Assembly (NCBI GenBank): GCA_946614165.1
Contig: CAMOGQ010000014.1
Location: 1-41,157 of the forward strand
Source: an uncultured Lachnospiraceae bacterium
GTDB lineage: Bacteria; Bacillota; Clostridia; Lachnospirales; Lachnospiraceae
Reading direction: 5' to 3'
DNA: 41,157 bases
The position numbers were made by a program, and so were the translations under genes. Positions 488-15,388 of the stretch are shown here, piece by piece (position 1 is the stretch's first letter; each line of letters opens with the position of its first letter). The notes beneath the pieces were generated by a model. The model saw only the letters and a list, made by a program, of their open reading frames with translations. It did not search any database and had not been told where the DNA came from.

Positions 488-565
488 ATGCGTATTACTT
501 TGCATATCGGACGTTTCACAGTCACGATCATTGTAAAAAGCAACAACCGCCACTCGGCAAAGTGA
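488..565 (+). CDS. 25-residue candidate type I toxin peptide, copy 2
   Basis: This ORF encodes a peptide identical to that at 56-133 despite two nucleotide differences near its 3' end (Ser TCT to TCG, Ala GCC to GCA). It has the same buried ribosome binding site and the same stem-loop across the stop codon. The likely sense promoter at 384-410 would give a transcript of roughly 210 nt ending in the T run at 624-630. Function is unproven. An alternative is a translated leader or regulatory small ORF. Confidence 0.6.
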   Translation: MRITLHIGRFTVTIIVKSNNRHSAK

Positions 566-624
566 CGGTTGTTTAACTAATAAATTAACCTCATGAGACC
601 AACCGCTTGTCGCAGTGTTCCTCT
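535..624 (-). ncRNA. Predicted antisense (antitoxin) RNA, copy 2
   Basis: The layout is the same as in copy 1: start near 624, terminator arms 561-573 and 542-554, T run at 539-535. The loop sequence differs from copy 1 while both arms are unchanged, which suggests the stem is maintained. Confidence 0.65.
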
Positions 625-724: not shown

Positions 725-1801
725 TCACTGCTCCTGCATCCATCCGGGATAGTCTCCCCGGCTTACCTTCACTTCGTATCCCACGCTCCGGATCCGGGCC
801 TCCATGCATCTTCTGCATTCGGCGGCCTCGTCTCCCGTACAGATTTTCCCGTCATAGAGCATGTATTTCTTCCTGACGCCTACCGGAGACAGGTTGGGCA
901 TGACCACGTTGGCCCCTGCCAGGATCCCCAGCTCCCTTCCCCTGGGATGAATGGTCCCCAGGGCTGTGGTTGCGGGAAGAAGGACCTTTGGCAGCATGAG
1001 GCGGAGGATGGCAAGGACCCTCAGGGTCTGGTCCAGTCCTCCGGACGCCTCATCCTTAAAGGGCGTATCCTTGTGGGATATGAAGGGACCGATCCCAATC
1101 ATGTGGGGCTCAAATTCCTTCATCCAGTACAGATCCTCCAGGATATTGTCGTCCGTCTGTCCCGGGGAATGGAGCATGATCCCGCATCCCACCTGATAGC
1201 CGATGTCCTTAAGATCATAGAGGCATCTCTTCCTGTTCTCTATGGTCAGGGGCTCCGGATGGAGGAAGCGGTAGTGGGCGGGACTGGACGTCTCCTGCCG
1301 GAGAAGGTAGCGCTGGGCTCCGGCGTCGAAATAGGCCTTGTAGGACTCCCTGGACTTTTCCCCCAGGGAAAGAGTCAGGGCGCAGTCGGGATGGGCCGAC
1401 CGGATGGAAGAAGCCAGATCGCAGATCCTTTCGTCCGTATACCAGGAATCCTCTCCTCCCTGCAGGACAAAGGTCCGAAAGCCCAGCGCATAGCCCTTAT
1501 CGCAGCAGTCCAGGATCTGCTCTTTGTCCAGGCGGTAGCGCTGGGCATTTTTATTGGACCTGCGGATCCCGCAGTAATAGCAGTCGTTTCTGCACCAGTT
1601 GGAGATCTCGATCAGGCCCCTCAGATAGACGTCCTTTCCGAAAATGGACTCTCTGACCTCCCTGGCTGCGGCATAGAGGGCCTCGCTTTCCTCCCCTGTC
1701 AAAGGGCCCAGAAGGGCCTTCAGGTCTTCATAAGGGAGGGTCCCCCTGTCTTTCAGCTCTTCTATCCTGTCCATGACAGTTCTGTTTCCGCTCATGGTCA
1801 T
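725..1801 (-). CDS. hydE: [FeFe] hydrogenase maturase HydE (radical SAM)
   Basis: The protein has 358 residues, the usual HydE length. The radical-SAM motif C70-x3-C74-x2-C77 sits in the HydE-type context ISNWC-RNDCYYCGIRRSN. A second C-terminal cluster motif, C321-x7-C329-x2-C332, is also typical of many HydE proteins. In known systems HydE works after HydG in building the diiron subcluster of the H-cluster. The start is the ATG six bases after GGAG. It is the last gene of the long minus-strand operon, 47 bases after hydF. No HydG is present in the window, so its substrate here is uncertain. A HydE-like paralogue with another role is possible. Confidence 0.9.
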   Translation of the reverse strand: MTMSGNRTVMDRIEELKDRGTLPYEDLKALLGPLTGEESEALYAAAREVRESIFGKDVYLRGLIEISNWCRNDCYYCGIRRSNKNAQRYRLDKEQILDCCDKGYALGFRTFVLQGGEDSWYTDERICDLASSIRSAHPDCALTLSLGEKSRESYKAYFDAGAQRYLLRQETSSPAHYRFLHPEPLTIENRKRCLYDLKDIGYQVGCGIMLHSPGQTDDNILEDLYWMKEFEPHMIGIGPFISHKDTPFKDEASGGLDQTLRVLAILRLMLPKVLLPATTALGTIHPRGRELGILAGANVVMPNLSPVGVRKKYMLYDGKICTGDEAAECRRCMEARIRSVGYEVKVSRGDYPGWMQEQ

Positions 1802-1848
1802 CTGTCTCTCCGTTTCCGCTCCGGCGCTCCCGCGCCGGCAGCCATTTC

Positions 1849-3102
1849 TTATGCCTTTTCTTCCCTGGCCCTGTCAAACATCTCTGTCAGATGAGGGAAC
1901 ATGGCGATGCTCCTTCTCAGGATCCCGTGGGTATAGGCGATATAGGTCCCGTAGTTGGTAAAGGGGACGCCCTGGTCCCTGGCGCAGTTCATGCGGTAGA
2001 GCATTTCCCTGCCGGTCAGCATGCAGCCGCCGCAGTGGATCACCATCCTGTAATCGTCCAGATCCTCGGGGAAGCCCTTGCCGGAGCTGAACTCGAACTG
2101 TATGTCTTTCCCCGTATATTTCTTCATCCACATGGGGATCTTGACCGTGCCGATGTCCCCGCACTGCCTGTGGTGGGTGCAGCCCTCGGACACCAGGATC
2201 CTGTCCCCGTCCTGCAGGCTGTCTGCGGCCAGAACGCCTTCCACCGCCGTATCCAGAAAGCCCTTATAGCGGGCCATAAGGATGGAGAAGGAGGTCAGAG
2301 GGATCTCCTCCGGTACGATGGCGGAGACCCTTCCGAAGACCTGGGAGTCCGTAATGACCAGAGAAGGCCGCATGCAGTTCTTATGAAGGGCATCGTAAAG
2401 CTCGGTCTCCCTGACGCACATGGTCATGACGCCTGCGTCCAGAAGGTCTCTGATCACCTGCTGCTGGGGCAGGATCAGCCTTCCCTTGGGCGCTGCCTTG
2501 TCGATGGGAATGACCAGGGTGACCAGGTCTCCGGGCTTTACCAGATCCGCGCAGAGGTGCCTCTCCTCTTCCTTTGTATCCGCCAGGCGGCCTATGGCCT
2601 CCTTGAGCTCCCGGATGCCCTCCTTTAAAAGGGCGCTGACATAGATGACCCTGTCTGCGGGGATCCTGGCGGCACCGCCCGTAAGAGGGGCTCTTTCTGC
2701 CTTCCTCACCAGGTCCGACTTGTTCATGGCGATCAGGAAGGGGATCTGCTTGTCCACAAAGATATGGATCAGCTCCCTGTCCGCATCCTTTAAGCCCTCG
2801 TTGCAGGTAGCCACCAGGACGGCCACGTCGATCCTGTTCAGGATCTGCCTGGTCCTTCTGACCCTCTGCTGTCCCAGGGCCCCCTCGTCGTCGAAGCCGG
2901 GGGTATCGATAATGACCACCGGTCCCAGGGGCAGAAGCTCCATGGACTTGGTGACAGGGTCCGTGGTGGTTCCCTTGACGTCGGAGACCAGGGCCATCTC
3001 CTGACCCGTGACCGCGTTCACAAGGCTGGACTTGCCGGCGTTCCTTCTGCCGAAAAATCCGATATGGATCCGCTCTCCCGAGGGAGTATCATTCATTCCC
3101 AT
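1849..3102 (-). CDS. hydF: [FeFe] hydrogenase maturation GTPase HydF
   Basis: The protein has 417 residues. An N-terminal TrmE/Era-like GTPase domain carries the P-loop at 18-25 (GRRNAGKS), DTPG at 66-69 and NKSD at 127-130. The C-terminal cluster-binding domain has the diagnostic C308-x-H310 and H356-C357-x2-C360. HydF is the scaffold that carries the diiron precursor and delivers it to the hydrogenase apoprotein. The start is supported by AAAGGA six bases upstream. It lies between the nifK-like gene and hydE in the same direction with short gaps, so cotranscription is very likely. All diagnostic residues are intact. Confidence 0.93.
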   Translation of the reverse strand: MGMNDTPSGERIHIGFFGRRNAGKSSLVNAVTGQEMALVSDVKGTTTDPVTKSMELLPLGPVVIIDTPGFDDEGALGQQRVRRTRQILNRIDVAVLVATCNEGLKDADRELIHIFVDKQIPFLIAMNKSDLVRKAERAPLTGGAARIPADRVIYVSALLKEGIRELKEAIGRLADTKEEERHLCADLVKPGDLVTLVIPIDKAAPKGRLILPQQQVIRDLLDAGVMTMCVRETELYDALHKNCMRPSLVITDSQVFGRVSAIVPEEIPLTSFSILMARYKGFLDTAVEGVLAADSLQDGDRILVSEGCTHHRQCGDIGTVKIPMWMKKYTGKDIQFEFSSGKGFPEDLDDYRMVIHCGGCMLTGREMLYRMNCARDQGVPFTNYGTYIAYTHGILRRSIAMFPHLTEMFDRAREEKA

Positions 3103-3134
3103 AGTGTTTCCTTTCCCCGGGGCCTATCTCCCGG

Positions 3135-4316
3135 TCACAGGCAGGATGCGGGCAGATCTCCGAAGAGATCCGGCATATCCTTTAAAAAGATCCGGCCCGA
3201 AAAGGCCAGATGGGGCAGGGGGACAAAGGGGCAGGATGCGGGCACGATGGGCTGATAGAGGGGATCCGCGATCACGTACTCCCCGGCCCGGAAGGCCTTC
3301 TCCACTTCCTCTTCGCCTCTTGTCAGCATGTCTCCCTCTGCCATAAAGGCTTCGCAGTCCTCGGTGGGGCATACCAGCCTGACGCAGCACCCTCTCTTCT
3401 TTTCCAGTACTGCGGCCAGGGACCCCATGGTGACGGGCTCTCCGATAAGGAGGACCTTCTCTCCTTCCTGCTGCTTTCCCCGCAGGTCCCTGCAGGGAAA
3501 TCTGTCCTTCTTATCCTCCGCGGCCCTTTTCAGGTCACAAAGGACCTCCTGCCGGATCCCCTCTGCGGGAAGACCGAAGACCGAAGGGATACCGAAGGTC
3601 TTTTTCAGATAGACTGCCGCCCTCATGCCAAGGGAGGAAACCACAAGATTTACGTCTGCCTCAGGGGCCTTTAAAAGATCGTCCAGACCGTCCCCCATGG
3701 CCCAGCAGGATGTGACCTCCATGCCGGCTTCAGAAAGGATCCTCCGAATTGAACTGACGGAGGACGTTGCCGCAAAGTCCAGAGGGGTCATGCCAAGGAC
3801 ATTGACTCTGATCTTTCCGCCTTCGTTTTCCTCTTCTGTCCCTTTCCTTTCCTCTCTGTTCTTCTGATTCCTTTTCAGAAGCTTTTCCGCCAGCCTCTCC
3901 AGGGCCAGTCCCCCGCCCCGGACATAGTCGTGCATGCCGTTGGTGGGGATATAGAAGACGGGAAGGCCGGTATCCGCTTCCAGCACCCTGGCGATTCCTT
4001 CGAAGTCCGTCCCGTTCAGATAGGGGATGGGAGAGTTGGCCAGGGCAATGAAGCGGGGGTTTGTCTGCTCTGCCGCCACAGTGATGTCTTCGATCAGCTT
4101 GTCGTCGTTTCCCATGACCGCGTCCAGGTCATTAAGGCCCGATATATAGATCAGGGAGTCCTGATCGTACCAGCGGATCTCGTCGTGGGTATTGTAGGTG
4201 GAGTTGCAGCCGGAAGGATCGTGCATGACCGTCATGCCGCCCAGCTCGTAAAGAGCTGAGCATGCTCCCGACAGATCTCCTGTATATACGGATATGATTC
4301 TGTAAGCCTGTCTCAT
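3135..4316 (-). CDS. Nitrogenase component 1-like protein, K-type subunit (split set)
   Basis: The protein has 393 residues and belongs to the nitrogenase component 1/oxidoreductase superfamily (NifDK, BchNB/BchYZ, CfbD). The N-terminal region has Cys19 (SGAC-SALYELGG) and Cys37 (DPSGC), followed by a GNDDKLIEDI-type segment. The third NifK P-cluster cysteine position has none (ANSPIPYLNGTDF). It ends with a Pro-rich HLAFSGR segment shared with the fused paralogue at 11603-14038. The start overlaps the upstream nifD-like stop by four bases (ATGA), implying translational coupling and a D-K complex. The subfamily is not one I can name. Substrate or scaffold role is unknown. Confidence 0.8.
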   Translation of the reverse strand: MRQAYRIISVYTGDLSGACSALYELGGMTVMHDPSGCNSTYNTHDEIRWYDQDSLIYISGLNDLDAVMGNDDKLIEDITVAAEQTNPRFIALANSPIPYLNGTDFEGIARVLEADTGLPVFYIPTNGMHDYVRGGGLALERLAEKLLKRNQKNREERKGTEEENEGGKIRVNVLGMTPLDFAATSSVSSIRRILSEAGMEVTSCWAMGDGLDDLLKAPEADVNLVVSSLGMRAAVYLKKTFGIPSVFGLPAEGIRQEVLCDLKRAAEDKKDRFPCRDLRGKQQEGEKVLLIGEPVTMGSLAAVLEKKRGCCVRLVCPTEDCEAFMAEGDMLTRGEEEVEKAFRAGEYVIADPLYQPIVPASCPFVPLPHLAFSGRIFLKDMPDLFGDLPASCL

Positions 4317-5638
4317 ATGCAGCTCTCGCACCCAAAGCCTTTCCGGGGCAGTACGTCCCTTGGATCTCCCGCATGGAGGAAGGCCTCCTCCATCATGGAG
4401 GAGAGGCGGATCAGGGCGTCGTACCCCCACATGCCGTTCATCTCCACCAGGTTGACGAAGTGGTCCGTTCCCGTAAGCCAGGCCGCCTTGGGCCCTATGG
4501 CCAGGGTCTCCGGCGCGTCTCCGTGGTCAAGGCGGAGGGATACGTGGATGGTGGAACATAAAAGCAGGTCCGGATACCGCTCCTGCAGGTCCAAAAAGGC
4601 CTGCTCCTCTTCCGGAGAGACTGCGTCCAGATAGACCCTGGTCACGTTAAAACCTTTATCCAGAAGGAGCCCTGCCAGGCCCAGGGGCCTTGGAACACCC
4701 AGGTAGTCGATGGCGACGGGGGTGTCTCCGATGAGAGCAAGGGCTCTCTCAAGGGCCCTGTCGCATTCCTTCTCCCTCTCTTCAAAGTCCATGACCGGGA
4801 TCCCCAGTCTGCCGCAGAGGTCTTCCGTCTCCTGCCGGATCTCCTCATAGGAGACTGCGCAGGGCAGGTAGAGATAGTCTCCGCCCGTCCGCCTGGCCAT
4901 CTTTTCCAGGCCGTAGAGGCCCGGGGCGCTCCTTGTGACGTAAAGGCCGGAGGAAGCAAGGCCTTTAAACTCCTCAAAGGTCTGGCAGTCCGTGATCTGG
5001 CGGACCTTAATGCCGCGTTCCGTAAGGTGTCTGTACAGGCCACTTTCCTCCTCCAGTGGGAAGTTGTCCAGAAGAAAGCTGACCGCCCTTTGATCCCTTA
5101 CCTGCGGTTCCTCAAGGGGATCCAGCATGGCCTTTCTCAGCTTCTGGTCCGGGGTCAGACCCAGCTTCTGCATGATGGGATCCATCCAGCAGCGAAGAAA
5201 ACATATATCGGGAAAGCGCTTTTCCAGCTCCCTGTAGACCCTGCCCGTATCGGTCCCTATGAAGTGGTGGAGACAGACCAGAAAGACCATGACCACCGGG
5301 GGCCTCTCCTCCAGCTTTTCGATGCAGCTGGAGACCCCCTCTATGGTCACGTCCTCCAGGTTGCCCTCATAGAGGTCCTTCTCCTCCAGGACCACATAGG
5401 AAAAGCGGTCCGAGGCATTCATTTCCGCCGCGGTCAGGACCACGCCCCGCATGCAGTTGTCGGCGCAGACATAGATCTGCCGGCTCTCCGGCATCCGCAT
5501 CCCGATATGGACAATATTCCAGTTTTCGTGGACAGGGGGATTGAACTCCAGCCGCCCTTTAAAGGGGGCGGGATAGGCCGCCTGTCCTATGGGGACCTGA
5601 TATCCCTCGCCTGCCTGTCTGTCTTTTCTGACCAGCAT
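4313..5638 (-). CDS. Nitrogenase component 1-like protein, D-type subunit (split set)
   Basis: The protein has 441 residues. Candidate cluster ligands are Cys58 and Cys62 (YVC-ADNC-MRG) and Cys122 (FLVC-LHHFIGTD), matching the spacing of the three N-terminal cysteines of NifD/BchN-like subunits. The GTD after Cys122 corresponds to the conserved GDD/GTD of this superfamily. It sits between nifH-like 1 and nifK-like, so H-D-K are consecutive. No NifB- or NifEN-type companions are seen, and the full set of FeMo-cofactor ligands is not recognisable, so this is not a conventional nitrogenase. The start at 5638 has a weak AGGA upstream; the exact start is less certain than the identity. Confidence 0.8.
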   Translation of the reverse strand: MLVRKDRQAGEGYQVPIGQAAYPAPFKGRLEFNPPVHENWNIVHIGMRMPESRQIYVCADNCMRGVVLTAAEMNASDRFSYVVLEEKDLYEGNLEDVTIEGVSSCIEKLEERPPVVMVFLVCLHHFIGTDTGRVYRELEKRFPDICFLRCWMDPIMQKLGLTPDQKLRKAMLDPLEEPQVRDQRAVSFLLDNFPLEEESGLYRHLTERGIKVRQITDCQTFEEFKGLASSGLYVTRSAPGLYGLEKMARRTGGDYLYLPCAVSYEEIRQETEDLCGRLGIPVMDFEEREKECDRALERALALIGDTPVAIDYLGVPRPLGLAGLLLDKGFNVTRVYLDAVSPEEEQAFLDLQERYPDLLLCSTIHVSLRLDHGDAPETLAIGPKAAWLTGTDHFVNLVEMNGMWGYDALIRLSSMMEEAFLHAGDPRDVLPRKGFGCESCI

Positions 5639-5682
5639 ATATTAATCCTGCTTTCTGTCCCTGCAGCCTGTGCCGCCTGCGT

Positions 5683-6438
5683 TCAAAGAAGGTGATTCTG
5701 CTTAAGGATGGCTTCCGAAAGGGCCCGGATCTCTCCGGCTTCGGGGCTCTCCGGCGCATACTCCAGAAGAGTCTGCCCCTTTTCCTCCGCCTCAGGGATC
5801 AGAAGGCTCCTTCTGATATCTCCCAGGATCACCGTATCAAAGTCCTCTGCCAGCTCCTTTACCCTTACCTCCTCTCCGGATTCCCTTCTCCGGTTGAGGA
5901 TCAGGCCGCCCAGATCCGCGTAACCCCGCTTTTTAAAGTTGCTTACGGCAGTGCAGATGTTGGCGGCGGCGTAGACGGACATGTTCTCTCCCGATGTGAC
6001 CACGTAGACATGGTCGGCATAGCCCTGCCGCATGGGCATGGCAAAGCCCCCGCAGACCACGTCCCCCAGTACGTCGTAGAGGACGATATCGGGCCTGCAC
6101 TCCTTATAGACACCCATTTCCTCCAGCTTTTCCAGGGCTGTGATGATGCCCCTGCCGGCGCAGCCAAGTCCGGGAAGAGGGCCTCCCGCTTCGGCGCAGA
6201 AGATCCCCTCTCTTCCTTCCATGACCATGTCCGAAAGGCCGAAGGGTTCTTTATTCCTGACCAGGTCCATGACGGAGGGAAGGGGCCTGCCTTTCCGCAG
6301 CAGAAGGGTGGAATCCGCCTTGGGGTCGCAGCCGATCTGCAGGACCCTGAAGCCCTTCTGTGCAAAGGCCATGGACAGATTGGCGGCCACGGTGGATTTG
6401 CCGATGCCGCCCTTTCCGTAGATCGCAAGTCTGATCAT
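5683..6438 (-). CDS. NifH/BchL-like ATP-dependent iron-sulfur reductase 1
   Basis: The protein has 251 residues. A deviant Walker A (GKGGIGKST, 8-16) is followed by [10 protein letters not shown]. The two cluster ligands are Cys93 (GLGCAGRG) and Cys129 ([11 protein letters not shown]). Both are conserved, so it should dimerise around a [4Fe-4S] cluster and pass low-potential electrons to a partner with ATP hydrolysis. The partner is presumably the D/K pair that follows directly. The start codon overlaps the stop of the TM1266-like gene by four bases. It is distinct from the second NifH-like gene at 14061-14822, implying two separate H-D-K sets. Confidence 0.88.
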
Positions 6439-6716
6439 GCTCTTCCCCTCTCTCCGCTCTCCACGTGGGTGACCACGTTGGAGTAGGCGGCCTTGGCGCT
6501 GACCCCCTGCAGGCGGCCGATCCGGCCCGACAGGGCGGAAATGGCCTCCTGGGGCGCGTCAATAGCCACCGAAATGATGCTGATCCCCTTTGCTCTGTAG
6601 GGAATGCCCATGCGGCCTATGATATAGGCGGAGTATTCATGGAGAAGGGCGTTGATCCTCTCCACCATCTCCGGATTTTCTATAATGATCGAAATCACAG
6701 CGACACGTGTTTCCAT
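6435..6716 (-). CDS. TM1266-type iron-only hydrogenase system putative regulator
   Basis: The protein has 93 residues and opens [12 protein letters not shown], with a [12 protein letters not shown] segment and an ACT/NikR-like ferredoxin fold pattern. This matches the small 'iron-only hydrogenase system regulator' family usually found beside hydEFG. The start at 6716 is chosen because GGGAGGATCA immediately precedes it; an in-frame ATG 11 codons upstream lacks a good site. It overlaps the nifH-like 1 start (ATGA). No DNA-binding domain is visible, so any regulation would be through ligand sensing or a partner. Confidence 0.8.
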
Positions 6717-6786
6717 TGATCCTCCCGGGCAGGTCTGTTCCTGCCGCATATTTAACTCAGCTGCTGCCTTCCCCTTTTTCCCGGGA

Positions 6787-7794
6787 TCAGCAGATCCTGG
6801 GCAGGAGCTCGTTGCCGGGCTGGGGCAGAAGGGTCTGGGACCCGATCTCCGTGGTCATGACCACCCGGCCCTGATTCTCAGAGGTGACTCTGCCGATGAC
6901 GGCGGCTCCCTCCGAGGAAGGCACCTTCCGCAGGGCCTCCAGTACGGCCTGCGCGTCCCCTTCGGGGACGGCCATGACCATGCGGCCTTCGCAGGCAAGG
7001 TAGAGGGGCTCCAGGCCCAGCATGCCGCAGACTCCTCTGACCTCGGGCTCTACGGGGATCTTCTCCGCTTCCAGGCGGATTCCCACGCCTGACTGGTCCG
7101 CGATCTCATAAAGGACTGTGCCAACGCCGCCTCTGGTGGCGTCCCGGATCACGTGGATGTGGTCCGAAGCTCCAAGGGCTGCCTGGACTGCGTCCCAGAG
7201 GGGAGCGCAGTCGCTGGTCACGTCCGCTTCAATGCCGTATTCGTCTCTGGCCAGAAGGATGGTGCAGCCGTGCCTTCCCACGTCTCCTGTGACCAGGATG
7301 ACGTCTCCGGGCTCTGCCAGGGCTCCGCCGGTCTTTACGCCTTCTTCAATGACCCCTACGCCGGTGGTGGTGATAAAGACGCCGTCCACCTGGCCCTTTC
7401 CGGCCACCTTGGTATCGCCGGCCACCAGCTTTACTCCTGCCTTTGCGGCGGTATCCGCCATAGATTTGGCGATCCTGCGAAGATCCTCCATGGGGAAGCC
7501 TTCCTCAATGACGAAGGCGCAGGTCATATACAGGGGCCTTGCGCCCATACAGGAGAGGTCGTTGACCGTCCCGCAGATGGAGAGCTTTCCTATGTTTCCT
7601 CCCGGGAAAAAGGCGGGAGAGACGATAAAGCCGTCGGTGCTCATGGCCAGTTTCCCGGCCGGGATGTCCAGTACGGCCGCGTCGTCCGCCGTAAAGTAGG
7701 GATTGGAAAAATAAGCCTTGAATACTTTGTCGATCAGTTCGGAGGTCTGTTTTCCTCCGGCCCCGTGGGCCAGGGCTACGGTTTCTGTAAGCAT
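6787..7794 (-). CDS. hypE: [NiFe] hydrogenase maturation protein HypE
   Basis: The protein has 335 residues of the AIR-synthase/PurM-like family. It includes the DDAAVLDIPAG and STDGFIVSP segments and ends PRIC, with Cys335 as the residue that receives the carbamoyl group from HypF and is dehydrated to a thiocyanate. In known systems this supplies the cyanide ligands of Fe(CN)2CO on HypC-HypD. It is 30 bases downstream of hypD in the same operon. Confidence 0.95.
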   Translation of the reverse strand: MLTETVALAHGAGGKQTSELIDKVFKAYFSNPYFTADDAAVLDIPAGKLAMSTDGFIVSPAFFPGGNIGKLSICGTVNDLSCMGARPLYMTCAFVIEEGFPMEDLRRIAKSMADTAAKAGVKLVAGDTKVAGKGQVDGVFITTTGVGVIEEGVKTGGALAEPGDVILVTGDVGRHGCTILLARDEYGIEADVTSDCAPLWDAVQAALGASDHIHVIRDATRGGVGTVLYEIADQSGVGIRLEAEKIPVEPEVRGVCGMLGLEPLYLACEGRMVMAVPEGDAQAVLEALRKVPSSEGAAVIGRVTSENQGRVVMTTEIGSQTLLPQPGNELLPRIC

Positions 7795-7824
7795 ATGTAT
7801 CTGTACCTCTCTGTTCTCAGTGTC

Positions 7825-8874
7825 TTAAATGATCCCGCCGTAAAGATAGAAGGCGGAGCAGGCCCCCTCGCCGGAGACCATGCAGGCCCCCACGGGATGC
7901 TCCGGCGTGCAGCCCTTTCCGAAGACTCTGCAGTCGGAAGGGGAGCATTTGCCCTGGAGCACGTCGCCGCAGCGGCAGGCAGGGTTCTCCCTGCTCTCTA
8001 TGCCCTTTATGTCAAACTTTACCCTTGCGTCATAGTCTCCCCACTGGGGGCGGAGCTTTACGCCGGAATCCTTCAGGACTCCTATGCCCCTCCATCTGGC
8101 GTCGCAGGGCTCCATCATCTCCGCCACCAGCTTCTGGGCGGCGGGAGATCCCTGATCTGTGACGACTCTGGGATAGCAGTTGACAAAGAAGGGCTCTCCC
8201 TTCTGGGCTTTGGCAACCCCTACGGCCAGGGCGGTCAGGATCTCCTTTCCCGTAAAGCCGGCCACCACGCCGGATACCCCTTTGTCCAGCATGTCCAGGC
8301 AGTCCTTTGTGCCTGTGATGGCGTGGACATGGCCGGGATAGAGATAAAAGTCCGCCGCGTCCTTCATGGCCTCGTAGGCGGAGGGCATGGTCTTGTTGGC
8401 GGTCAGGATGGTAAAGTTATGAAGGCCTTCCTGCTTTGCCTTCTGCACCGCCAGGCAGGAGGAGGGAGTGGTGGTCTCAAAGCCCACCGACAGGAAGCAT
8501 ACCTGGGTATCCGGATGCCCTGCGGCATAGTCTACGGCGTCCATGGGGGAATAGACCACCTTTACCGCGGCTCCCCGGGCCCTTGCCCCTGCCAGGCTCA
8601 TTTTTGTTCCAGGCACCCTGACCAGGTCGCCGAAGGTGCAGATGGTCACGCCCTTTTCCAGTGCCAGAAAGACAGCCTCGTCGATAAAGTCCACCGGCGT
8701 TACGCATACGGGGCAGCCGGGGCCGGAGATCAGCTGGATATCCGGGGAAAGAAGGCCCCGGATGCCCAGGCGGAAGATCTCGTGGGTATGGGTCCCGCAG
8801 ACCTCCATGATGCGGATCTTTTTCCCGCGGTAGTCCTGCAGGATCTCTCTGGCGCTTTTTGTCTGTTTTTCCAT
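7825..8874 (-). CDS. hypD: [NiFe] hydrogenase maturation protein HypD
   Basis: The protein has 349 residues. Conserved motifs include Cys26 (CGTHTHE), GPGCPVC with Cys54 and Cys57, and a Cys-rich C-terminal region (ACRCGD, KCSPSDC) that binds a [4Fe-4S] cluster. HypD with HypC is the platform on which Fe(CN)2CO is built. It is transcribed between hypC and hypE. Confidence 0.95.
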   Translation of the reverse strand: MEKQTKSAREILQDYRGKKIRIMEVCGTHTHEIFRLGIRGLLSPDIQLISGPGCPVCVTPVDFIDEAVFLALEKGVTICTFGDLVRVPGTKMSLAGARARGAAVKVVYSPMDAVDYAAGHPDTQVCFLSVGFETTTPSSCLAVQKAKQEGLHNFTILTANKTMPSAYEAMKDAADFYLYPGHVHAITGTKDCLDMLDKGVSGVVAGFTGKEILTALAVGVAKAQKGEPFFVNCYPRVVTDQGSPAAQKLVAEMMEPCDARWRGIGVLKDSGVKLRPQWGDYDARVKFDIKGIESRENPACRCGDVLQGKCSPSDCRVFGKGCTPEHPVGACMVSGEGACSAFYLYGGII

Positions 8875-8917
8875 AATTCTCTGTCCTTTACATATCCGTC
8901 CTGCAAAGCTGCCGGCC

Positions 8918-9139
8918 TTAAATCTCGATCATCAGCTGGTCCATCAGCTGCTCTGTCTCGTGGCTGTCCTCGTCCGTGATCCTGGCAATGGCCGCGCCGG
9001 CATGGACCATGACATAGTCGCCGGGCTCCAGGTCCTCCAGGAGGGCCGCTGAAACTCTTCTCTTTGCTCCGGATGCGTCCACCAGAGCGGTGCCGTCCTC
9101 ATCTATGCCGACGATTCTTGCGGGTAATCCTACGCACAT
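8918..9139 (-). CDS. hypC: [NiFe] hydrogenase assembly chaperone HypC
   Basis: The protein has 73 residues and begins MCVGLPARI with the essential Cys2, followed by a small OB-fold (DYVMVHAGAAIARI). It carries the iron unit with HypD and normally chaperones the large hydrogenase subunit. AAAGGAAAAGAT precedes the ATG. A 65-base gap to hypF holds a small GC hairpin (about 9152-9173) but no clear terminator. Confidence 0.93.
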   Translation of the reverse strand: MCVGLPARIVGIDEDGTALVDASGAKRRVSAALLEDLEPGDYVMVHAGAAIARITDEDSHETEQLMDQLMIEI

Positions 9140-9205
9140 ATCTTTTCCTTTCTGCCGCAGGGTCTGCGGCCATGGCTTTTCATATATAAAAAAGTATTTC
9201 GTTTA

Positions 9206-11569
9206 TTACAGGTCCAGAAGTCCTTTTGACTTCCTGTAGAGCCCTGCTGCCGCCTGGCCCAGGGCAATGCCTCCGTCGTTGGGGGGCACCAGGCTGTGGA
9301 TCAGGACTTTAAAGCCTTCCTTCTCCAGTCCCTCCTGCACCATTCCCAGAAGGAGGGTGTTCTGGAAGACGCCTCCGCTGAGAGCGCAGGTCATAAGTCC
9401 TGTCCTTTCCCGGATCCTGATGCAGGCCCTTATGATCATATCTGCCAGGTGCCTGTGGAAGATCCATGCAAGCCTTCCCGGATCCTCTCCCTTCAGTCTC
9501 CTTTCCAGGAGATTCCCAAAGAGAAGGTCCGTCTGCAGGACAAGGCCCCCCTCTTCCTCAGAGGGACTGAGCCAGTCAGGGGAAGAAATACAAGTGTCCT
9601 GGGGGTACCTGGGCATATCCTGATCTGTTTCCGGCTCTTTCACATACTTTTCGGCCGCGAACTGCAGGGCCGTTGCCGCTTCTCCCTCGAAGGTGGAGAC
9701 TTTCCGGATGCCCAGAAGGGCTGCTGCACCGTCAAAGAGCCTGCCCGCACTGGTGGAGACCACGCTGTTGAGTTTTTTATCCGCCATCATGAGCTGGACC
9801 CTGGCTGTCCTGTCATCGCACAGATCCAGGTCCCTTATGATCCCAAGGGTCCTGTCCCTGTCCCTGATCAGGCTGTAGATCATGGATACGGCGATCCGCC
9901 ATCCCTCTCTGGAGGAAGCGTCTCCCCCGGTCTGCAGGAAGGGCCGGATGTGGGCTTCTCTCTCAAAGCCTTCAAAGTCCGCCGTCAGGATCTCTCCTCC
10001 CCAGACGGTCCCGTCACTGCCGTAGCCTGTGCCGTCGAAGGAGACCCCTATGACTTTGCCCGCAAAATCGTTCTCTGCCAGGCAGGAGGCTATGTGGGCG
10101 TAGTGGTGCTGGATCTCCAGGACCGGAAGGCCGTACTCCCTGGCCAGGAGAGAGGAATTGTAGCGGGGATGGAGGTCGCAGACCACCAGCTCCGGCTCTG
10201 TCTCCAGCAGGGTCTCCATTCTCCCCACGGTCTCCCGCAGGGCCTTAACGGACCGCAGGTCCTCCAGGTCTCCTATATAGGACGAAGGATAAAAGAGGCC
10301 GCCCGTCCCTATGCAGAAGGTGTTCTTGAGTTCTCCTCCCATGGCAAGAACGCTCCCCTTCATCTCCTCCGACATCATGTAGGGGAGGGGGGCGTAGCCC
10401 CGGGACCTGCGGATCATGTAGGGCTTATCCTGATAAAAGTCCATGACAGAGTCGTCGCACCGGATCCGGATCATCCTGTCGTGGGAAAGGATGCAGTCGC
10501 AGAGGCGGCCCAGCTCTCTTAACGCTTCCTCGTCGTCCCTGCAGATGGGGGCTCCCGAAATGTTGCCGCTGGTCATGACCAGGGTATCCGGCATGACCAG
10601 GCCGTCGTCATAGTCAAATAAAAGGAGCTGGACCGGGGCGTAGGGGAGCATGACCCCCACTTTGGGATTGCCCGGAGCTATGGCGGAGCAGAGTTTTCCG
10701 CCCTCTTTTCTCTCCAGCAGAAGGATGGGCTTCTGGTGGCCCGTCAGGATCTCCTCCTGGGCGGGGGTAAATAAGCACTCTCTTTTGACCGTCTCCAGGT
10801 CCCGCATCATGACGGCAAAGGGCTTCATGGGCCTTCTTTTTCTCTCCCGAAGGAGGGTGACCGCCTCTTTTGAGGATGCGTCACAGCACAGGTGAAAGCC
10901 CCCGATCCCCTTGACGGCCACGATGCCGCCGGAGAGGATGGTCTTCCTCGCGAAGGTGATGGCTTCCCTTCCCCTTTCCTCTCTGCCCGCCAGATAGACC
11001 TGGGGCCCGCAGTCGTTGCAGCAGACCGGCTGGGCGTCGTAGCGGCGGGATGCCGGGTCGTAGTATTCCTTCCTGCACCTGGGACACATGGGAAAGACCT
11101 TCATGGAGGTCCTGTGCCTGTCGTAGGGCAGGGCGTCCAGGATGGTCAGCCTGGGCCCGCAGCAGGTGCAGTTGATAAAGGGATGGAGGTACCTGGGATT
11201 CCCCGGGGTATACAGCTCCTCTTTGCATTCGTCGCAGATGGCGATGTCCGGGGAAATGAAGATTTCCCCCTTTGTCTTTTCGCTCTCGATGATGGAAAAA
11301 TCGGGAAAGGATCCGGAACCCGCCGCATCCCTTACGTCCATCTTCAGGATGGCGGCCCTCCTTGGCGGCCTGTGCTCCAGAGCTTCCAGGAAGGAGGTTA
11401 CCTGCTCAGGACTTCCCTGGGCATAGATCTCCACGTAGGGGCCCTTGTTGCAGACGGATCCCCGGATGCCGTAAGAGGCGGCATGTCTTGCCACGGTGGG
11501 CCGAAAGCCCACTCCCTGGACGATGCCGTAGACCCGTATTCTTTTTGTCACTTCTTTTAAGTCCGGCAT
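9206..11569 (-). CDS. hypF: Carbamoyltransferase HypF
   Basis: The protein has 787 residues in the complete four-part architecture. An N-terminal acylphosphatase domain (VYGIVQGVGFRP) is followed by two zinc-finger modules (CDEC...CTCC and CPRC...CNDC), a YrdC-like domain (IVAVKGIGGFHL), and a C-terminal Kae1-like domain with VSFDGTGYG and SGGVFQN motifs. It activates carbamoyl phosphate with ATP and transfers the carbamoyl group to the HypE C-terminal cysteine. It lies 33 bases after the D-K fusion gene. GAGGA precedes the ATG. Confidence 0.95.
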   Translation of the reverse strand: MPDLKEVTKRIRVYGIVQGVGFRPTVARHAASYGIRGSVCNKGPYVEIYAQGSPEQVTSFLEALEHRPPRRAAILKMDVRDAAGSGSFPDFSIIESEKTKGEIFISPDIAICDECKEELYTPGNPRYLHPFINCTCCGPRLTILDALPYDRHRTSMKVFPMCPRCRKEYYDPASRRYDAQPVCCNDCGPQVYLAGREERGREAITFARKTILSGGIVAVKGIGGFHLCCDASSKEAVTLLRERKRRPMKPFAVMMRDLETVKRECLFTPAQEEILTGHQKPILLLERKEGGKLCSAIAPGNPKVGVMLPYAPVQLLLFDYDDGLVMPDTLVMTSGNISGAPICRDDEEALRELGRLCDCILSHDRMIRIRCDDSVMDFYQDKPYMIRRSRGYAPLPYMMSEEMKGSVLAMGGELKNTFCIGTGGLFYPSSYIGDLEDLRSVKALRETVGRMETLLETEPELVVCDLHPRYNSSLLAREYGLPVLEIQHHYAHIASCLAENDFAGKVIGVSFDGTGYGSDGTVWGGEILTADFEGFEREAHIRPFLQTGGDASSREGWRIAVSMIYSLIRDRDRTLGIIRDLDLCDDRTARVQLMMADKKLNSVVSTSAGRLFDGAAALLGIRKVSTFEGEAATALQFAAEKYVKEPETDQDMPRYPQDTCISSPDWLSPSEEEGGLVLQTDLLFGNLLERRLKGEDPGRLAWIFHRHLADMIIRACIRIRERTGLMTCALSGGVFQNTLLLGMVQEGLEKEGFKVLIHSLVPPNDGGIALGQAAAGLYRKSKGLLDL

Positions 11570-11602
11570 AGCAGATTTCCTCTTATGTCCAGTCCTCTTT
11601 TT

Positions 11603-14038
11603 TTATTCCCACCTGCCGGATACGGCAAAGTGGGGAAGGTCGTGCCAGGTTCCTTTAAAGGATCCGCAGAGGGGCCGGTATACGGCGTCTGCCAGGATCA
11701 TATCGAAGGCTCCGGAGGATGCAAGGGCCGTCAGGTCTCCTTCTTCCTTCAGGGGGACGTCTCCTTCCCCTCTGCACTCTTCCGGCATCATGAACCAGGA
11801 AGCGCAGGTGACGGAGGAAGCGCCCCTTTCCAGAGCTTTTTTCCGAAGGCTCTCCGAAAGGACCGCCTGGTGGAGGATCAGGATCCTCCTGCCCCTAAGG
11901 TCCTCCTCCGGAAGCAGGCACTCCGCTCCCGGAACTCCAACTTCCACGGGGATGCCGAATCGCTTTTCCAGGTCCCCGGCCGCCTGAATGGCCGCAGGGG
12001 AAACGGCTATGGTAAGAGCGGCGTCTCCCGCCCTTTTTACGTCTTCCAGGGAGGCTCCCATGCCAAAGAGCCGGATCTTTTCAAAGCCCCTGGCTTTCAG
12101 AGCTTCTTTCATGCTCTTCGAAAGGCCCGCGGGCATATCCATGGGGATGGTCCCGATGACGTTGACCGTCCTTTCACCTTCTTCGGTCCTCAGGACGTTG
12201 TTGTCCGTAAGGGTCAGGATGAGCTCTCTGTAGGCGGCCTCCGCTCCTTTGTCGTACCACTGCATGCCGGTGGATTCCACCGTCAGGATAGGAAGTGAGA
12301 CCTTCTTTTCCGCCATCCGCTTCAGGGCTCTGAAGTCGGTGCCTATGACCGCGGGGACCGGAGTCCCTATGAGGGCGGCGAAGCTGCCCCCTACCCGCTT
12401 CGCGGCGTCCGTCAGCTTTTCGATCAGCTTATCGTCCCGTCCAAGGATGGCGTCCATGTCCCTAAGCCCTGCGGAAAAGACCGCTGCTTTCTCCGTCAGC
12501 CACCTGGGCTCGTCGAAGCCGCAGATGTTGCCGGTGCAGCCGCCCGCGTCCACAATGACGTTTATGCCGCCAAGGCCGTAGAGAGCCGCCACAGCCCCCG
12601 ACTGGTCCGGGGCAAAGGGAGTAAGGACCCTTCTTAAGCCTTTGACCGTCACTTCCGTTTCCTTTAAGGTCCCCTCCTCTTTCAGTCTGGCGTGGGTGCC
12701 CACCCGGACAAGAGAGCCGGAGGCGTCCTCCCTGCCCTCCGCCGCGGCGTAAAGGGCCCTGAAAAGGCTTTCCACCCCTCCGAAGCCGAAGGGCTGTACG
12801 TCCGAATTCCACTGGACCCCCGGAAGGTCCGGATGGTACCAGGCGGCGTCCTTTCCTATGGTCATGGTAATGCCCCTGTCCTCACCCTCATAGGTCAGCA
12901 TGGAGGGATCCAGGTTGGAGTAGACCCTGGTGCCGGGACTGAGGATGGCCAGGTGGCGCAGGTATACAAAGTACTCCGGCATGAGGGCCGCGTAGATCTC
13001 CCTGACCTGGAAGCCGCAGCGGATCAGGGCCAGAGCCAGCTCGAAGGGGTTGGCGTTCAGGGCTTCTCCCACGGCAAAGACCGTATCGGGATAGGCTGCC
13101 CGGAACTTCTTCATGGCCTCCCTGGCCCTCTCCATGGGGCCGGCATCGTCCAGGTCCCTGCCCAGAGCAGAGCCCAGGGCCATGTACTGCTTATGGATCT
13201 GGTCGATCTGATAGAGCCTTGTCAGTTCTATATAGGGGATGCCCAGCTTCCGGTTCATGTCCTCCGCTGCGGGCCTTGTCTCCGTATTCAGGACCAGGCT
13301 GAAGTTGGCCTCGGACATGCGCATAAATTCCTCCATGTCGGGGCATGTGGAAATCTGCCGGATCGTCCGGATCCCCGCCTGCTGCAGGAGAGAGGGAAGC
13401 TCGCTCCCGGAATCCAGCGGTGCGAAAAAGCCCAGGAGGTTGACGGCCCTTGGATCCTTCTTTCTCTTTTCCAGCATGGAATAGAGGGACTGGCGCACAT
13501 GGACCATGGGAGGCTTTCTGCCCTCCCTGGTCAGGGCGTACATGTAGCAGGGGCGGACCGGTACCCCGGCCCTTTCCTGGGCCTTTCTGCAGACCCTTTC
13601 CATGTCGGTGCCAAGGAGAGCGTCCACGCAGGTGATGCAGATCATGACCACGGAGGGCTTTCTGTCCAGTCCCCGGCAGATGGCCTCCACCGCCGCGGGG
13701 ATCCGCTTCAGGTGCCTTCCGGTCACCAGGTCCGTTTCGTCCATGAGAAGGTAAAAGAAACGGTTCTCATAACCCGGCAGGGTGGAGATGGAGGATGTAT
13801 TCCTGCCGCAGCAGCCCGGGGATACGATCAGCATGACCGAGCCGGGTACCGACAGACCCGCCCTCTTGACCCCGAAGCCCTCGGCGCCGGGGGAGTTGAA
13901 GGCCAGGGTGGCCGGGGAGGAATAGATCAGATGGCTTCCGGTCATCAGGTGGGAGGGGATATGGTCCTTTCCCCTCTCCCACAGGTCCCGGACGGTGTAG
14001 GATACAGCTTTTTCTTCTTTATGATTCATAGGTTCCAT
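11603..14038 (-). CDS. Fused nitrogenase component 1-like protein (D-type and K-type halves)
   Basis: The protein has 811 residues, about the sum of the split D (441) and K (393) proteins. Residues 1 to about 450 match the D protein: Cys76-Cys77 near the first ligand pair, and Cys137 (ICITC-VDALLGTDM) aligned with Cys122. Residues from about 460 match the K protein: Cys501 (DAGGC) aligns with Cys37, Val483 replaces Cys19, then GRDDKLIEKL and a C-terminal LPHFAVSGR. No stop or frame change lies between the halves, so it is a genuine fusion. It follows nifH-like 2 by 22 bases. The start could be Met1 or Met4 (14029); neither has a strong ribosome site. The D-K fusion and the function are not ones I recognise as characterised. 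Confidence 0.8.
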   Translation of the reverse strand: MEPMNHKEEKAVSYTVRDLWERGKDHIPSHLMTGSHLIYSSPATLAFNSPGAEGFGVKRAGLSVPGSVMLIVSPGCCGRNTSSISTLPGYENRFFYLLMDETDLVTGRHLKRIPAAVEAICRGLDRKPSVVMICITCVDALLGTDMERVCRKAQERAGVPVRPCYMYALTREGRKPPMVHVRQSLYSMLEKRKKDPRAVNLLGFFAPLDSGSELPSLLQQAGIRTIRQISTCPDMEEFMRMSEANFSLVLNTETRPAAEDMNRKLGIPYIELTRLYQIDQIHKQYMALGSALGRDLDDAGPMERAREAMKKFRAAYPDTVFAVGEALNANPFELALALIRCGFQVREIYAALMPEYFVYLRHLAILSPGTRVYSNLDPSMLTYEGEDRGITMTIGKDAAWYHPDLPGVQWNSDVQPFGFGGVESLFRALYAAAEGREDASGSLVRVGTHARLKEEGTLKETEVTVKGLRRVLTPFAPDQSGAVAALYGLGGINVIVDAGGCTGNICGFDEPRWLTEKAAVFSAGLRDMDAILGRDDKLIEKLTDAAKRVGGSFAALIGTPVPAVIGTDFRALKRMAEKKVSLPILTVESTGMQWYDKGAEAAYRELILTLTDNNVLRTEEGERTVNVIGTIPMDMPAGLSKSMKEALKARGFEKIRLFGMGASLEDVKRAGDAALTIAVSPAAIQAAGDLEKRFGIPVEVGVPGAECLLPEEDLRGRRILILHQAVLSESLRKKALERGASSVTCASWFMMPEECRGEGDVPLKEEGDLTALASSGAFDMILADAVYRPLCGSFKGTWHDLPHFAVSGRWE

Positions 14039-14060
14039 TGGCTTTGATGTGATTGTCCTT

Positions 14061-14822
14061 TTACTCCCTGTCCTGACTCTCCAGAAGTAGGTCCGCCAGG
14101 TCCAGGAATTTTTTCGAGACCTCCAGACTTATGTCTCCCTCGATCACGGTCTTTCCCATGTCCTCATAGCGGTTGATGTCATGGCTTCTGGGGATTTCTC
14201 CCACGATCTTAAGTCCTCTTTCCGCAGCAAAGGCCTCCACCTTTTCGTTTTCATTTTCCACGTTCCTGTGGTTTAAAACGATGCCGAAGACCTTGGCGTA
14301 GGACCTGTCCTCGAAGTTCTTTACGGCGGCATAGATGTTGCCCGCGGCATAAAGGGCCATCTTTTCGCCGGAAGTAACGATCAGGACCTTTTCTGCATAG
14401 CCTTCCCGGATGGGGGCCGCAAAGCCGCCGCAGACCACGTCGCCCAGAACGTCGTAAAGGACCACGTCCGCCTTCCAGGTCTCAAAGAGCTCCAGGTCCT
14501 CCAAAAGGTTGAAGGTCGCGATAATGCCTCTTCCCGCGCAGCCAAGGCCCGGGGTGGGGCCGCCCGTCTCTATGCAGAGGATCCCCCCGTAGCCCACTCT
14601 GGAGATCTGGGAGAGCCTGTCAGGCTCCTCGTCCTCCTCCCGCAGGTAGTTCATGACGGGCCTCAGAGGCTCTCCTCCCAGGAGGTTGATGGTGGAATCC
14701 GCCTTGGGATCGCACCCGATCTGTATGACCTTCAGGCCCTTTGACGCAAAGGCCGCGGCCAGGTTGCTGGTAACGGTGGATTTGCCGATCCCGCCTTTTC
14801 CGTATATGGCGATCTTGAGCAT
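14061..14822 (-). CDS. NifH/BchL-like ATP-dependent iron-sulfur reductase 2
   Basis: The protein has 253 residues from the ATG at 14822. Walker A is GKGGIGKST (8-16), with cluster ligands Cys95 (GLGCAGRG) and Cys131 ([11 protein letters not shown]). This start is chosen because the protein then begins exactly like other NifH proteins ([11 protein letters not shown]) and GGAAGG lies just upstream; a longer in-frame extension crosses the leader terminator. It is the first gene of the long operon and probably serves the fused D-K protein that follows. Confidence 0.9.
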
Positions 14823-14890
14823 GGATGCCTTCCTTCCTGCCGCCGGGCGGCGCGCATTTCCTTCCAGGAAAGTTCCGGAAAAAAACACAT

Positions 14891-14922
14891 AATAAAAAGC
14901 CCTCCCGCTGACGCGGAAGGGC
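14891..14922 (-). terminator. Leader (attenuator) terminator before the 12-gene operon
   Basis: On the minus strand GCCCTTCCGC (14922-14913) pairs with GCGGGAGGGC (14908-14899) around a four-base loop, with one G-U pair. A T-rich tail (14898-14891) follows. It sits about 70 bases before the first gene and after the promoter, so it should control read-through rather than end an upstream gene. Confidence 0.7.
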
Positions 14923-14977
14923 CTGCTGATACATGGCAAAAGACGCAGAAGGTGGGCAGCAGCCCGCTTTTTCTGCG
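14919..14977 (-). promoter_or_regulatory. Candidate antiterminator and upstream hairpin in the operon leader
   Basis: Two folds compete on the minus strand. In one, CGCAGAA (14977-14971) closes with TTCTGCG (14950-14944) over an inner GGGC/GCCC pair. In the other, GGGCTGCTG (14965-14957) pairs with CAGCAGGCCC (14928-14919) with one bulge. The second fold consumes the first half of the terminator stem and would allow read-through. The ligand or trigger is unknown; no riboswitch class was identified with confidence. Confidence 0.5.
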
Positions 14978-15042
14978 CACAGTGACTGTTTTTCAGGACT
15001 TCCGGATCAAAAAACATTTCTCCGTCAGAGGTTTTTTACAGC

Positions 15043-15075
15043 ATTATCATAGATGTGAGTCTGTCAGTTAGTCAA
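15043..15075 (-). promoter_or_regulatory. Promoter of the nitrogenase-like/hydrogenase-maturation operon
   Basis: Minus strand: TTGACT at 15075-15070, an 18-base spacer, TATGAT at 15051-15046 (an overlapping GATAAT lies at 15048-15043). The predicted start is near 15038, giving a leader of about 215 nt before the ATG at 14822. Confidence 0.65.
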
Positions 15076-15130: not shown

Positions 15131-15388
15131 TTAGTTTTTTTCTTCTTCGTCTTCCCATTCGATCAGGCCCAGTTCGTAGTTGAGGTACTTGAGGACCTCT
15201 TCCCCGTCGATCATGTGGACCATGCAGGCCTCATACAGAGATTCCATCTGGGCGGAAGGGCAGCTGATGCAGGCCATGCCACAGTTCATCAGAATATAGG
15301 AGGCTTCCGGATACTGCATCAGGATGTCGCCGATCAGCATGTCGCCGGTAAGGGGCTGCTTCTTCTCCAGGGCTGTTTCGTTTGCCAT
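15131..15388 (-). CDS. DUF1858 / redox-disulfide domain protein
   Basis: The protein has 85 residues. A DUF1858-type sequence begins around LTGDMLIGDILMQYPEAS, and the typical CGMACISC-PSAQ motif lies near residues 36-43 with a further Cys in LYEACM. The family is often annotated as a hybrid-cluster-protein-associated redox disulfide domain. The C-terminus is strongly acidic. The start is supported by GAGGAAG. It is transcribed in the same direction as the metallocofactor operon but has its own terminator; a functional tie is only suggested by proximity and the Cys-rich motif. Confidence 0.75.
   Translation of the reverse strand: MANETALEKKQPLTGDMLIGDILMQYPEASYILMNCGMACISCPSAQMESLYEACMVHMIDGEEVLKYLNYELGLIEWEDEEEKN

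Follow-up and report, generated by a model that had tools for sequence, protein, structure and literature searches.

How might a bacterium that carries the [FeFe]-hydrogenase maturases HydE and HydF obtain the diatomic ligands of the H-cluster when its maturation genes include no hydG? This question is raised by a 41,157-nucleotide stretch of DNA from an uncultured Lachnospiraceae bacterium (assembly GCA_946614165.1, contig CAMOGQ010000014.1, positions 1-41,157), the whole of which was analyzed and is referred to here as the window. The H-cluster route described in the available part of one report begins with HydG (PMC13360658), and tyrosine is named as the source of all five carbon monoxide (CO) and cyanide (CN) ligands in the available part of another (PMC3105041). 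The window carries twelve codirectional genes on the minus strand (725-14822), transcribed in the order H1, fused D1K1, hypF, hypC, hypD, hypE, a TM1266-family gene, H2, D2, K2, hydF and hydE, where H denotes a nitrogenase reductase-like iron protein and D and K denote nitrogenase component 1-like proteins. The twelve do not include hydG, and this turned out to be the key fact of the locus. We consider it likely that the operon replaces HydG, with HypF, HypC, HypD and HypE and the two H-D-K systems making an iron-CO-CN unit for HydE and HydF.

A twelve-gene operon without hydG

The first-pass annotation had described one operon joining two nitrogenase-like systems to hypFCDE, a TM1266-type regulator, hydF and hydE. 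All twelve genes were recovered on one strand, with gaps of 22-66 bases and 4-base overlaps at TM1266-H2 and D2-K2. The gene identities held, and two starts were corrected: H1 probably begins at 14822, which is residue 66 of the listed open reading frame (ORF) 14061-15017, and K2 probably begins at 4316, where its start and the end of D2 share the bases ATGA. The annotation had not remarked on the missing hydG. HydE, HydF, HypF, HypC and the TM1266 protein exceed their NCBIfam cut-offs, and HypD, HypE and the H, D and K proteins were identified by Pfam (Table 1). D1 and K1 form one fused protein of 811 residues in the window, and two pieces, often encoded by separate genes, in many relatives.

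The gene set is conserved in six families

A search of genomes for the gene set, as the first-pass annotation had proposed, recovered it in 46 carriers spread over six families, ruling out an adjacency unique to this genome. At E <= 1e-60, D1K1 had matches in 33 of the 397 genomes from the window's family (the window genome is one of the 33), and 31 of these were taken as family carriers, G004 and G293 being left out (G and L numbers are our handles for genomes and loci). A D1 profile added 10 carriers among 391 genomes of the class and 5 among 378 of the phylum. D1K1 is 90% identical in Lachnospiraceae bacterium UBA3287 (L007), and Blautia sp. HCP28S3_G10 is the organism named for another D1 relative. 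Four genomes with D1 matches (G004, G293, G533 and G659) were rejected as carriers, the DNA read there having H-D-K or D-K genes without hyp genes; HydG is above its cut-off in G659 and in none of the other three.

The gene set is conserved beyond chance: in the DNA fetched, H1, D1, K1 and HypF occur in 46/46 carriers. The other components were seen less often (HypC and HypD in 44 carriers, HypE in 43, D2 in 39, K2 in 38, TM1266 in 32, HydF in 31, HydE in 27, H2 in 17, HydG in 0), and these per-gene counts are lower limits, since each stretch stops at a contig end or at 20 kb and some were retrieved purposely for HydE or HydF. H2 went unseen in more carriers than any other component, so a single iron protein, H1, may serve both D-K pairs. 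A search of the loci for another conserved partner gene yielded only clusters of pyridoxal phosphate-dependent enzymes, transporters, HAD proteins and IspD-like proteins, each in 3-5 loci.

HydG is absent from carriers, and HydE is shared between the two settings

No carrier has a match to the HydG model TIGR03955 above its cut-off (0/31 in the family, 0/10 in the class, 0/5 in the phylum; 0/46 altogether). Among the other genomes, the cut-off is passed in 175 of 366 from the family and in 39 of 60 from the class. For the family table, Fisher's exact test of HydG against the operon, with kinship ignored, gives p = 8e-9; the genomes are related, so the HydE tree below is the better argument. 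The completeness of the window genome is 87.65%.

HydF and HydG were tested jointly in 67 genomes, comprising the 31 family carriers and 36 others. All 31 carriers have a HydF match (30 above the cut-off; the one in G395 is truncated at a contig end), as do 18 of 19 HydG genomes, whereas the 17 genomes with neither HydG nor the operon gave none. Among carriers, the HydF search covered those of the family; each of the 15 carriers outside it has a HydE-range match. The genome G021 has HydG above the cut-off and no HydF match at E <= 1e-40. Where the locus of a HydG genome was read, hydE, hydG and hydF lay together in 7/7 cases, five of them with TM1266; in G012, G014 and G026, hydE and hydG are on different contigs. 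The genome G050 was considered as a HydG-free exception and rejected: its locus is of NiFe type, with HypF, HypD and HypE 38-44% identical and HypB-like and NiFe-type genes beside them, and its HydE match is just 29% identical.

The three cysteines of the HydE CX3CX2C motif are kept in 8/8 sequences. A HydE tree of 42 rows (25 operon-partnered, 15 HydG-partnered) showed the two kinds of partner intermixed, with 11 changes between them, a number as low being reached by 136 of 500 label shuffles. At least 5 swaps are forced by well-supported branches; examples are G071 (operon) with G007 (HydG) at 98/95 and G368 (operon) with G012 (HydG) at 100/99. No HydE alignment column separates operon from HydG partners beyond shuffled labels (111 of 300 shuffles reach the observed maximum). 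Intermixed on the tree and inseparable by column, the HydE proteins suggest, without proving it, that HydE has the same substrate in both settings.

The Hyp proteins are conserved where no [NiFe] large subunit is found

The key residues of the Hyp proteins are retained: Cys2 and His46 of HypC in 28/28 sequences, nine Cys and three His of HypD invariant in 28/28, and Cys335 of HypE in 27/27. HypF is assigned by its model score. Neither HypA nor HypB is encoded among the twelve genes. No match to PF00374, the [NiFe] large subunit, was found in the window genome or in the other family carriers that make up 25/31 with it, and the proposal that the hyp genes serve a [NiFe] enzyme was rejected on this ground. 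The remaining 6/31 family carriers, which do have PF00374, all have a second HypD. Compared with the window's HypD, the operon HypDs are 60-71% identical and the three NiFe-side copies that were read 41-44%; two of these NiFe-side proteins, from carrier genomes, are 43-44% identical, and one such locus encodes a large subunit ending in DPCISC. All five non-carriers with HypD above its cut-off among the 67 genomes (G003, G004, G010, G038 and G267) have PF00374.

The H, D and K proteins stand apart from characterized families

The four cysteines of H1 are invariant in 34/34 sequences, its P-loop reads YGKGGIGKS, and both H1 and H2 keep cysteines that include two cluster positions. In a tree of 37 H proteins, H1 and H2 form two clades with support of 100/100 and 100/99 (H2), apart from NifH, BchL and the H proteins linked to ABC transporters; this tree was built without CfbC, BchX and MarH, and for D and K the comparison relied on profiles, alignments and folds. 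The first-pass annotation had proposed placing the H, D and K proteins in trees with the known families. That placement was thus obtained in part: the H clades lie outside NifH and BchL, and the H, D and K proteins all score below the NCBIfam cut-off of every characterized family. Against the NifH cut-off of 394 bits, H1 scores 296 and H2 300; D1K1 scores 39 against a NifD cut-off of 654. Scores likewise stay below the cut-offs for DPOR, COR and CfbCD (BchL/N/B, BchX/Z, CfbC/D), with 298 vs 402 bits for CfbC, 60 vs 490 for BchB and 37 vs 268 for CfbD. Neither of the two findings that the annotation had named as fatal to its proposal was obtained: the adjacency recurs in other genomes, and the proteins fall outside the characterized families by these comparisons.

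D1 has Cys76, Cys77 and Cys137 invariant in 32 rows, and K1 has Cys56 in 30 rows. In D2, Cys62 and Cys122 are invariant and Cys58 nearly so in 24 rows, and K2 has one invariant cysteine in 22 rows. These residues align with a subset of the P-cluster ligands and, judged by sequence, may suffice to bind a single [4Fe-4S] cluster at the interface, of the kind present in DPOR or NifEN. The cysteine of the alpha subunit that anchors the FeMo-cofactor is not Cys at the aligned position in the D1, D2, K1 and K2 rows (three each). Structure models of D1 and D2, with mean predicted local distance difference test (pLDDT) values of 86 and 89, have the nitrogenase component 1 fold; in fold searches, chains of NifEN, nitrogenase and DPOR were about equally near, at 10-20% identity to solved chains. 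D2 has a weak sequence match of 28 bits to 9d9u/9fmg, which is our comparison with methylthio-alkane reductase, the tree having no Mar sequence.

[FeFe]-hydrogenase as the client

The [FeFe]-hydrogenase domain PF02906 is encoded in 31/31 family carriers, and the proteins were inspected in 30 of them (all except G383). At least one such protein with the TSCC, PC..KK and C..GC motifs is present in 24/31 family carriers: 20 by motif pattern, and four (G000, G083, G303 and G312) in a shorter form of about 490-530 residues, which we take to be group B. The window genome encodes one HydA with FTSCSPGW, MPCIAKK and EVMGCPGGC (G000:C6, L173) and a second, shorter one with TTSCCPAF, GPCIAKK and EGMVCPGGC (G000:C39). 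In two cases hydrogenase genes adjoin the operon. A group A6 HydA (NF040763 above cut-off, TSCCPGW) and an NAD(P)-binding partner lie immediately upstream of H1 in G550, and genes for NuoE-like, NuoF-like and HydA proteins are the next ones downstream of hypE in G203, after a gap of about 0.8 kb. In G230, hydE-hydF lies between D1 and K1. It is very likely that the client of the operon is an [FeFe]-hydrogenase.

Proposed pathway

From gene content, HydG exclusion, the intermixed HydE proteins, the kept residues and the hydrogenase linkage, we infer the following chemistry. Carbamoyl phosphate would be the starting material from which HypF and HypE produce cyanide, and the iron that accepts it would sit on HypC-HypD, as expected from their families and from the key residues kept. 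The available part of one report derives HypE/HypF cyanide from carbamoyl phosphate (PMC6802093), and we think it probable that HypE and HypF are the source of cyanide here. The operon would in this way link a second source of cyanide with HydE and HydF. CO outnumbers cyanide in the H-cluster, which calls for a step that increases the proportion of CO. According to the available part of PMC9298215, nitrogenase iron proteins can convert CO2 to CO both in vitro and in living cells, hence our proposal of the H-D-K systems as a source of CO and low-potential electrons. H1 paired with D1K1, and either H1 or H2 paired with D2K2, would raise the CO content by means of ATP-driven low-potential electrons, with CO2 to CO as the most likely reaction and the least certain step of the scheme. 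The product would be an Fe(CO)2(CN)-type unit, as opposed to the Fe(CN)2CO unit of [NiFe] enzymes. Among the possible roles of an H-D-K system, reduction of CO2 to CO can be put forward tentatively, reductive ligand exchange on the HypCD-made unit is rather doubtful, and a pure scaffold role is unlikely. Following the known pathway, HydE would then join two of these units into a dimer, and the diiron cluster would reach HydA by way of HydF.

That this gene set does the job of HydG is a conclusion we hold with good confidence. The balance seems even to us on a fuller proposal, namely that the operon is a second, HydG-free H-cluster route combining [NiFe]-type cyanide chemistry with two new nitrogenase-like enzymes that give CO and electrons, that it and HydG have traded places several times beside the same HydE, and that in many hosts it is under the control of its own undescribed leader RNA.

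Several observations weigh against the replacement of HydG by the operon. One genome (G048:C160, L165 7771-9950; an assembly 93% complete in 250 contigs) has a HydE-HydF pair with no HydG above the cut-off and no D1 or operon hit. Most of the set are draft genomes, in which absence is no proof of absence. The DNA fetched for G071, G741 and G1083 showed neither D2 nor K2, and the same holds for G091, G230 and G699, where the contigs end. The best HydA of many carriers (L173 and 11 others), including the operon-adjacent one in G203, has TSCSPGW in place of the usual TSCCPxW, the changed cysteine being presumably a cluster ligand; TSCSPGW was the sole form read in G025, G202, G203, G294 and G313, and no ORF fitted in G136. 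Of the 10 HydG genomes read, 7 likewise have this form as their best hit (examples L078-L085, L097), so it does not set the carriers apart. At least 9 family genomes, all without the operon, have HydA without HydE-range, HydF or HydG matches (G003, G008, G017, G019, G022, G032, G037, G039 and G293; loci such as L098, L088, L095 and L184-L189), and these proteins carry the H-cluster motifs TSCC or, in G039, TSCS. A HydA by itself thus does not show that the operon matures it, and alternative or missing maturation in the family extends beyond the operon. Any ligand or substrate given here for D1K1 or D2K2 is putative. HypCDEF build Fe(CN)2CO, according to the available part of PMC9431212. The CO:CN ratio of that unit is the wrong one for the H-cluster.

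Alternative explanations

The first-pass annotation had left the choice between a new route to a metal cofactor and a new reductase. The cofactor route is the reading we favor. A new reductase is improbable, in the sense that the operon would make a new iron-CO-CN cofactor for its own nitrogenase-like protein, that HydE and HydF would serve this cofactor, and that HydA would be matured otherwise. Such an enzyme would suit the two D-K pairs with their conserved interface cysteines, and the maturase-less HydA genomes of the family show that HydA does occur without any known maturase. Against it, HydF is confined, outside the carriers, to HydG genomes in the set of 67. Hydrogenase genes lie next to the operon in members of two families, the HydE tree mixes proteins of both contexts, and the known cofactor cysteine is missing from D and K. 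A very improbable arrangement is one of three unrelated functions in a single operon, with Hyp proteins for a [NiFe]-hydrogenase, HydE and HydF working with free CO and cyanide, and H-D-K for tetrapyrrole or thioether reduction. HydE-HydF without HydG gave about 1% activation in vitro, and free diatomics are raised as an option for Clostridium acetogens without a clear HydG, both in the available part of PMC9431212. This arrangement is hard to square with the 25/31 carriers that have no [NiFe] large subunit and the second HypD of the other 6, and with a gene order conserved over six families and HydG absent from 46/46.

Another radical SAM (S-adenosylmethionine) enzyme, for example a ThiH-like one, might have taken over the tyrosine lysis of HydG, the operon being no more than a correlate; we give this the least credence. 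In 20/31 family carriers a second match to the HydG model does occur, at about 165-205 bits, which we took as the ThiH range, set without a ThiH model, and an atypical radical SAM candidate for HydG in acetogens is put forward in the available part of PMC9431212. Yet 11/31 carriers, the window genome included, have only a HydE-range match under this model, and ThiH-range matches occur in HydG genomes as well. Replacement of HydG by the operon stays our preferred reading.

Comparison with known systems

The operon shares with the HydE-HydF-HydG pathway HydE, HydF and TM1266 above their cut-offs and a HydE inseparable from that of HydG genomes; it differs in having Hyp and H-D-K genes in the place of HydG. 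With [NiFe] maturation by HypCDEF it shares HypF, HypC, HypD and HypE with the key Cys and His of HypC, HypD and HypE kept, and it differs in lacking HypA and HypB among the twelve genes and, in 25/31 carriers, a large subunit to mature. Compared with NifEN, DPOR (BchLNB), CfbCD and Mar, the operon proteins score below cut-off, and no tetrapyrrole, nif or mar genes are among the twelve. Also comparable are uncharacterized H-D-K sets beside iron-type ABC transporters (L217 11959-18255, on the Treponema saccharophilum plasmid pTS1, and L070 and L071 in family genomes). In the T. saccharophilum set, H is 56% identical to H1 and K shares a GCTGN stretch with K1, whereas D and K are only 30% and 33% identical to D2 and K2 and no Hyp or Hyd genes lie in the 25 kb shown.

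According to the available part of PMC9431212, Clostridium ljungdahlii, C. sp. AWRP, C. coskatii and C. ragsdalei have HydE, HydF and HypCDEF; HypA and HypB are missing, as is any HydG recognizable by known motifs. The carriers described here also combine HydE, HydF and HypCDEF without HydG; in contrast, that report, as far as its available part goes, offers the atypical radical SAM candidate for HydG and names no nitrogenase-like partner. A HydG-free route, if true, could explain these acetogens (as portrayed in that part of PMC9431212). Under such a route the CO and CN ligands would take their carbon from another source and nitrogenase-like proteins would have a part in maturation; where CO comes from in anaerobic hydrogenase maturation could then be tested directly. 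NifH scores are common among rumen genomes despite negligible N2 fixation in the rumen, as the available part of PMC6776011 reports, and the gene set may help to explain these scores. No account of the twelve-gene set was found in a literature search that covered few subscription-journal papers and no bioRxiv holdings. Two papers were considered: PMC4149025, which in its available part lists nitrogenase-type genes only, and PMC9815643, which was set aside as unrelated, its hypD being another gene.

A conserved leader upstream of H1

A conserved element, ACUCUGACGGCAAGG-N3..8-UCCGAGCGGGAAUAGU, lies upstream of H1 in 22 loci at a score of at least 24/31 (examples: L048 12593 (-), L155 8125 (+), L055 7548 (+)). 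Across the 1.75 Mb of DNA fetched, just one more copy reaches this score, in L159 at 13396, between hypF and hypD; matches scoring 22 number five elsewhere and one in a shuffled control of 60 loci. The element was not found in the hydEGF loci read, nor seen in carriers of the families with handles f5, f43, f114 and f144. Ten proposed pairs hold in 94.8% of cells over 23 copies. Three pairs change on both sides, which 104 of 500 shuffles reach, and the covariation score is reached by 3 of 500; by these figures the pairing is well kept and the covariation modest.

The window is not among the 22 loci and has a degenerate copy (Table 1). Its leader folds with z = -2.75. A terminator-like hairpin lies within 350 nucleotides upstream of H1 in 27 of 38 loci, a count made without a shuffled control. 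Searched against Rfam at gathering cut-offs, the window and 7 related loci gave no match; relaxing the threshold to E <= 5 brought up five weak hits for the window leader, all under the cut-off (the best being PyrR at 23.6 vs 54 bits), and none for the L155 leader. The arrangement looks like transcription attenuation, and the leader is possibly a riboswitch. Promoter-like sites are as frequent in the window as chance expects (5 found, 4.8 expected), so the one upstream of the operon is weak evidence by itself; terminator-like hairpins number 21, with 14.8 expected.

Table 1 Coordinates of the operon genes and flanking signals in the window
Feature	Position	Strand	Basis
H1, nitrogenase reductase-like (NifH/CfbC-like) iron protein	14061..14822	-	PF00142, 281 bits
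D1-K1, fused nitrogenase component 1-like protein	11603..14038	-	PF00148, two stretches
HypF, carbamoyltransferase	9206..11569	-	TIGR00143, 738 bits, above cut-off
HypC	8918..9139	-	TIGR00074, above cut-off
HypD, Fe-S scaffold	7825..8874	-	PF01924, 423 bits
HypE, with C-terminal cysteine (PRIC)	6787..7794	-	AIRS domains
TM1266-family putative regulator of iron-only hydrogenase system	6435..6749	-	TIGR03959, 111 bits vs cut-off 61
H2, second nitrogenase reductase-like iron protein	5683..6438	-	PF00142, 278 bits
D2, nitrogenase component 1-like	4313..5638	-	PF00148
K2, nitrogenase component 1-like	3135..4316	-	PF00148, 103 bits
HydF, GTPase scaffold of H-cluster maturation	1849..3102	-	TIGR03918, 555 bits vs cut-off 326
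HydE, radical SAM maturase	725..1801	-	TIGR03956, 557 bits vs cut-off 255
Promoter-like site upstream of operon	15046..15075	-	TTGACT-18-TATGAT, 10/12
Degenerate copy of leader element (CUCUGACGG kept)	15000..15031	-	10/15 in first half; second half unrecognizable in the window
Terminator-like hairpin between promoter and H1	14897..14924	-	12 pairs, then T-rich
Terminator-like hairpin after hydE	542..573	-	14 pairs

Other genes in the window

A DUF1858 gene (15131-15388, minus strand) lies codirectionally upstream of the operon and was not found in the relatives' loci examined. Further along, a gene for a PD-(D/E)XK family transposase occupies 25360-26232 (minus strand). The gene at 30454-33534 (minus strand) encodes a 1026-residue protein in which a C-terminal-type glycosyl hydrolase 3 domain stands ahead of an N-terminal-type one, with an Fn3-like domain between them.

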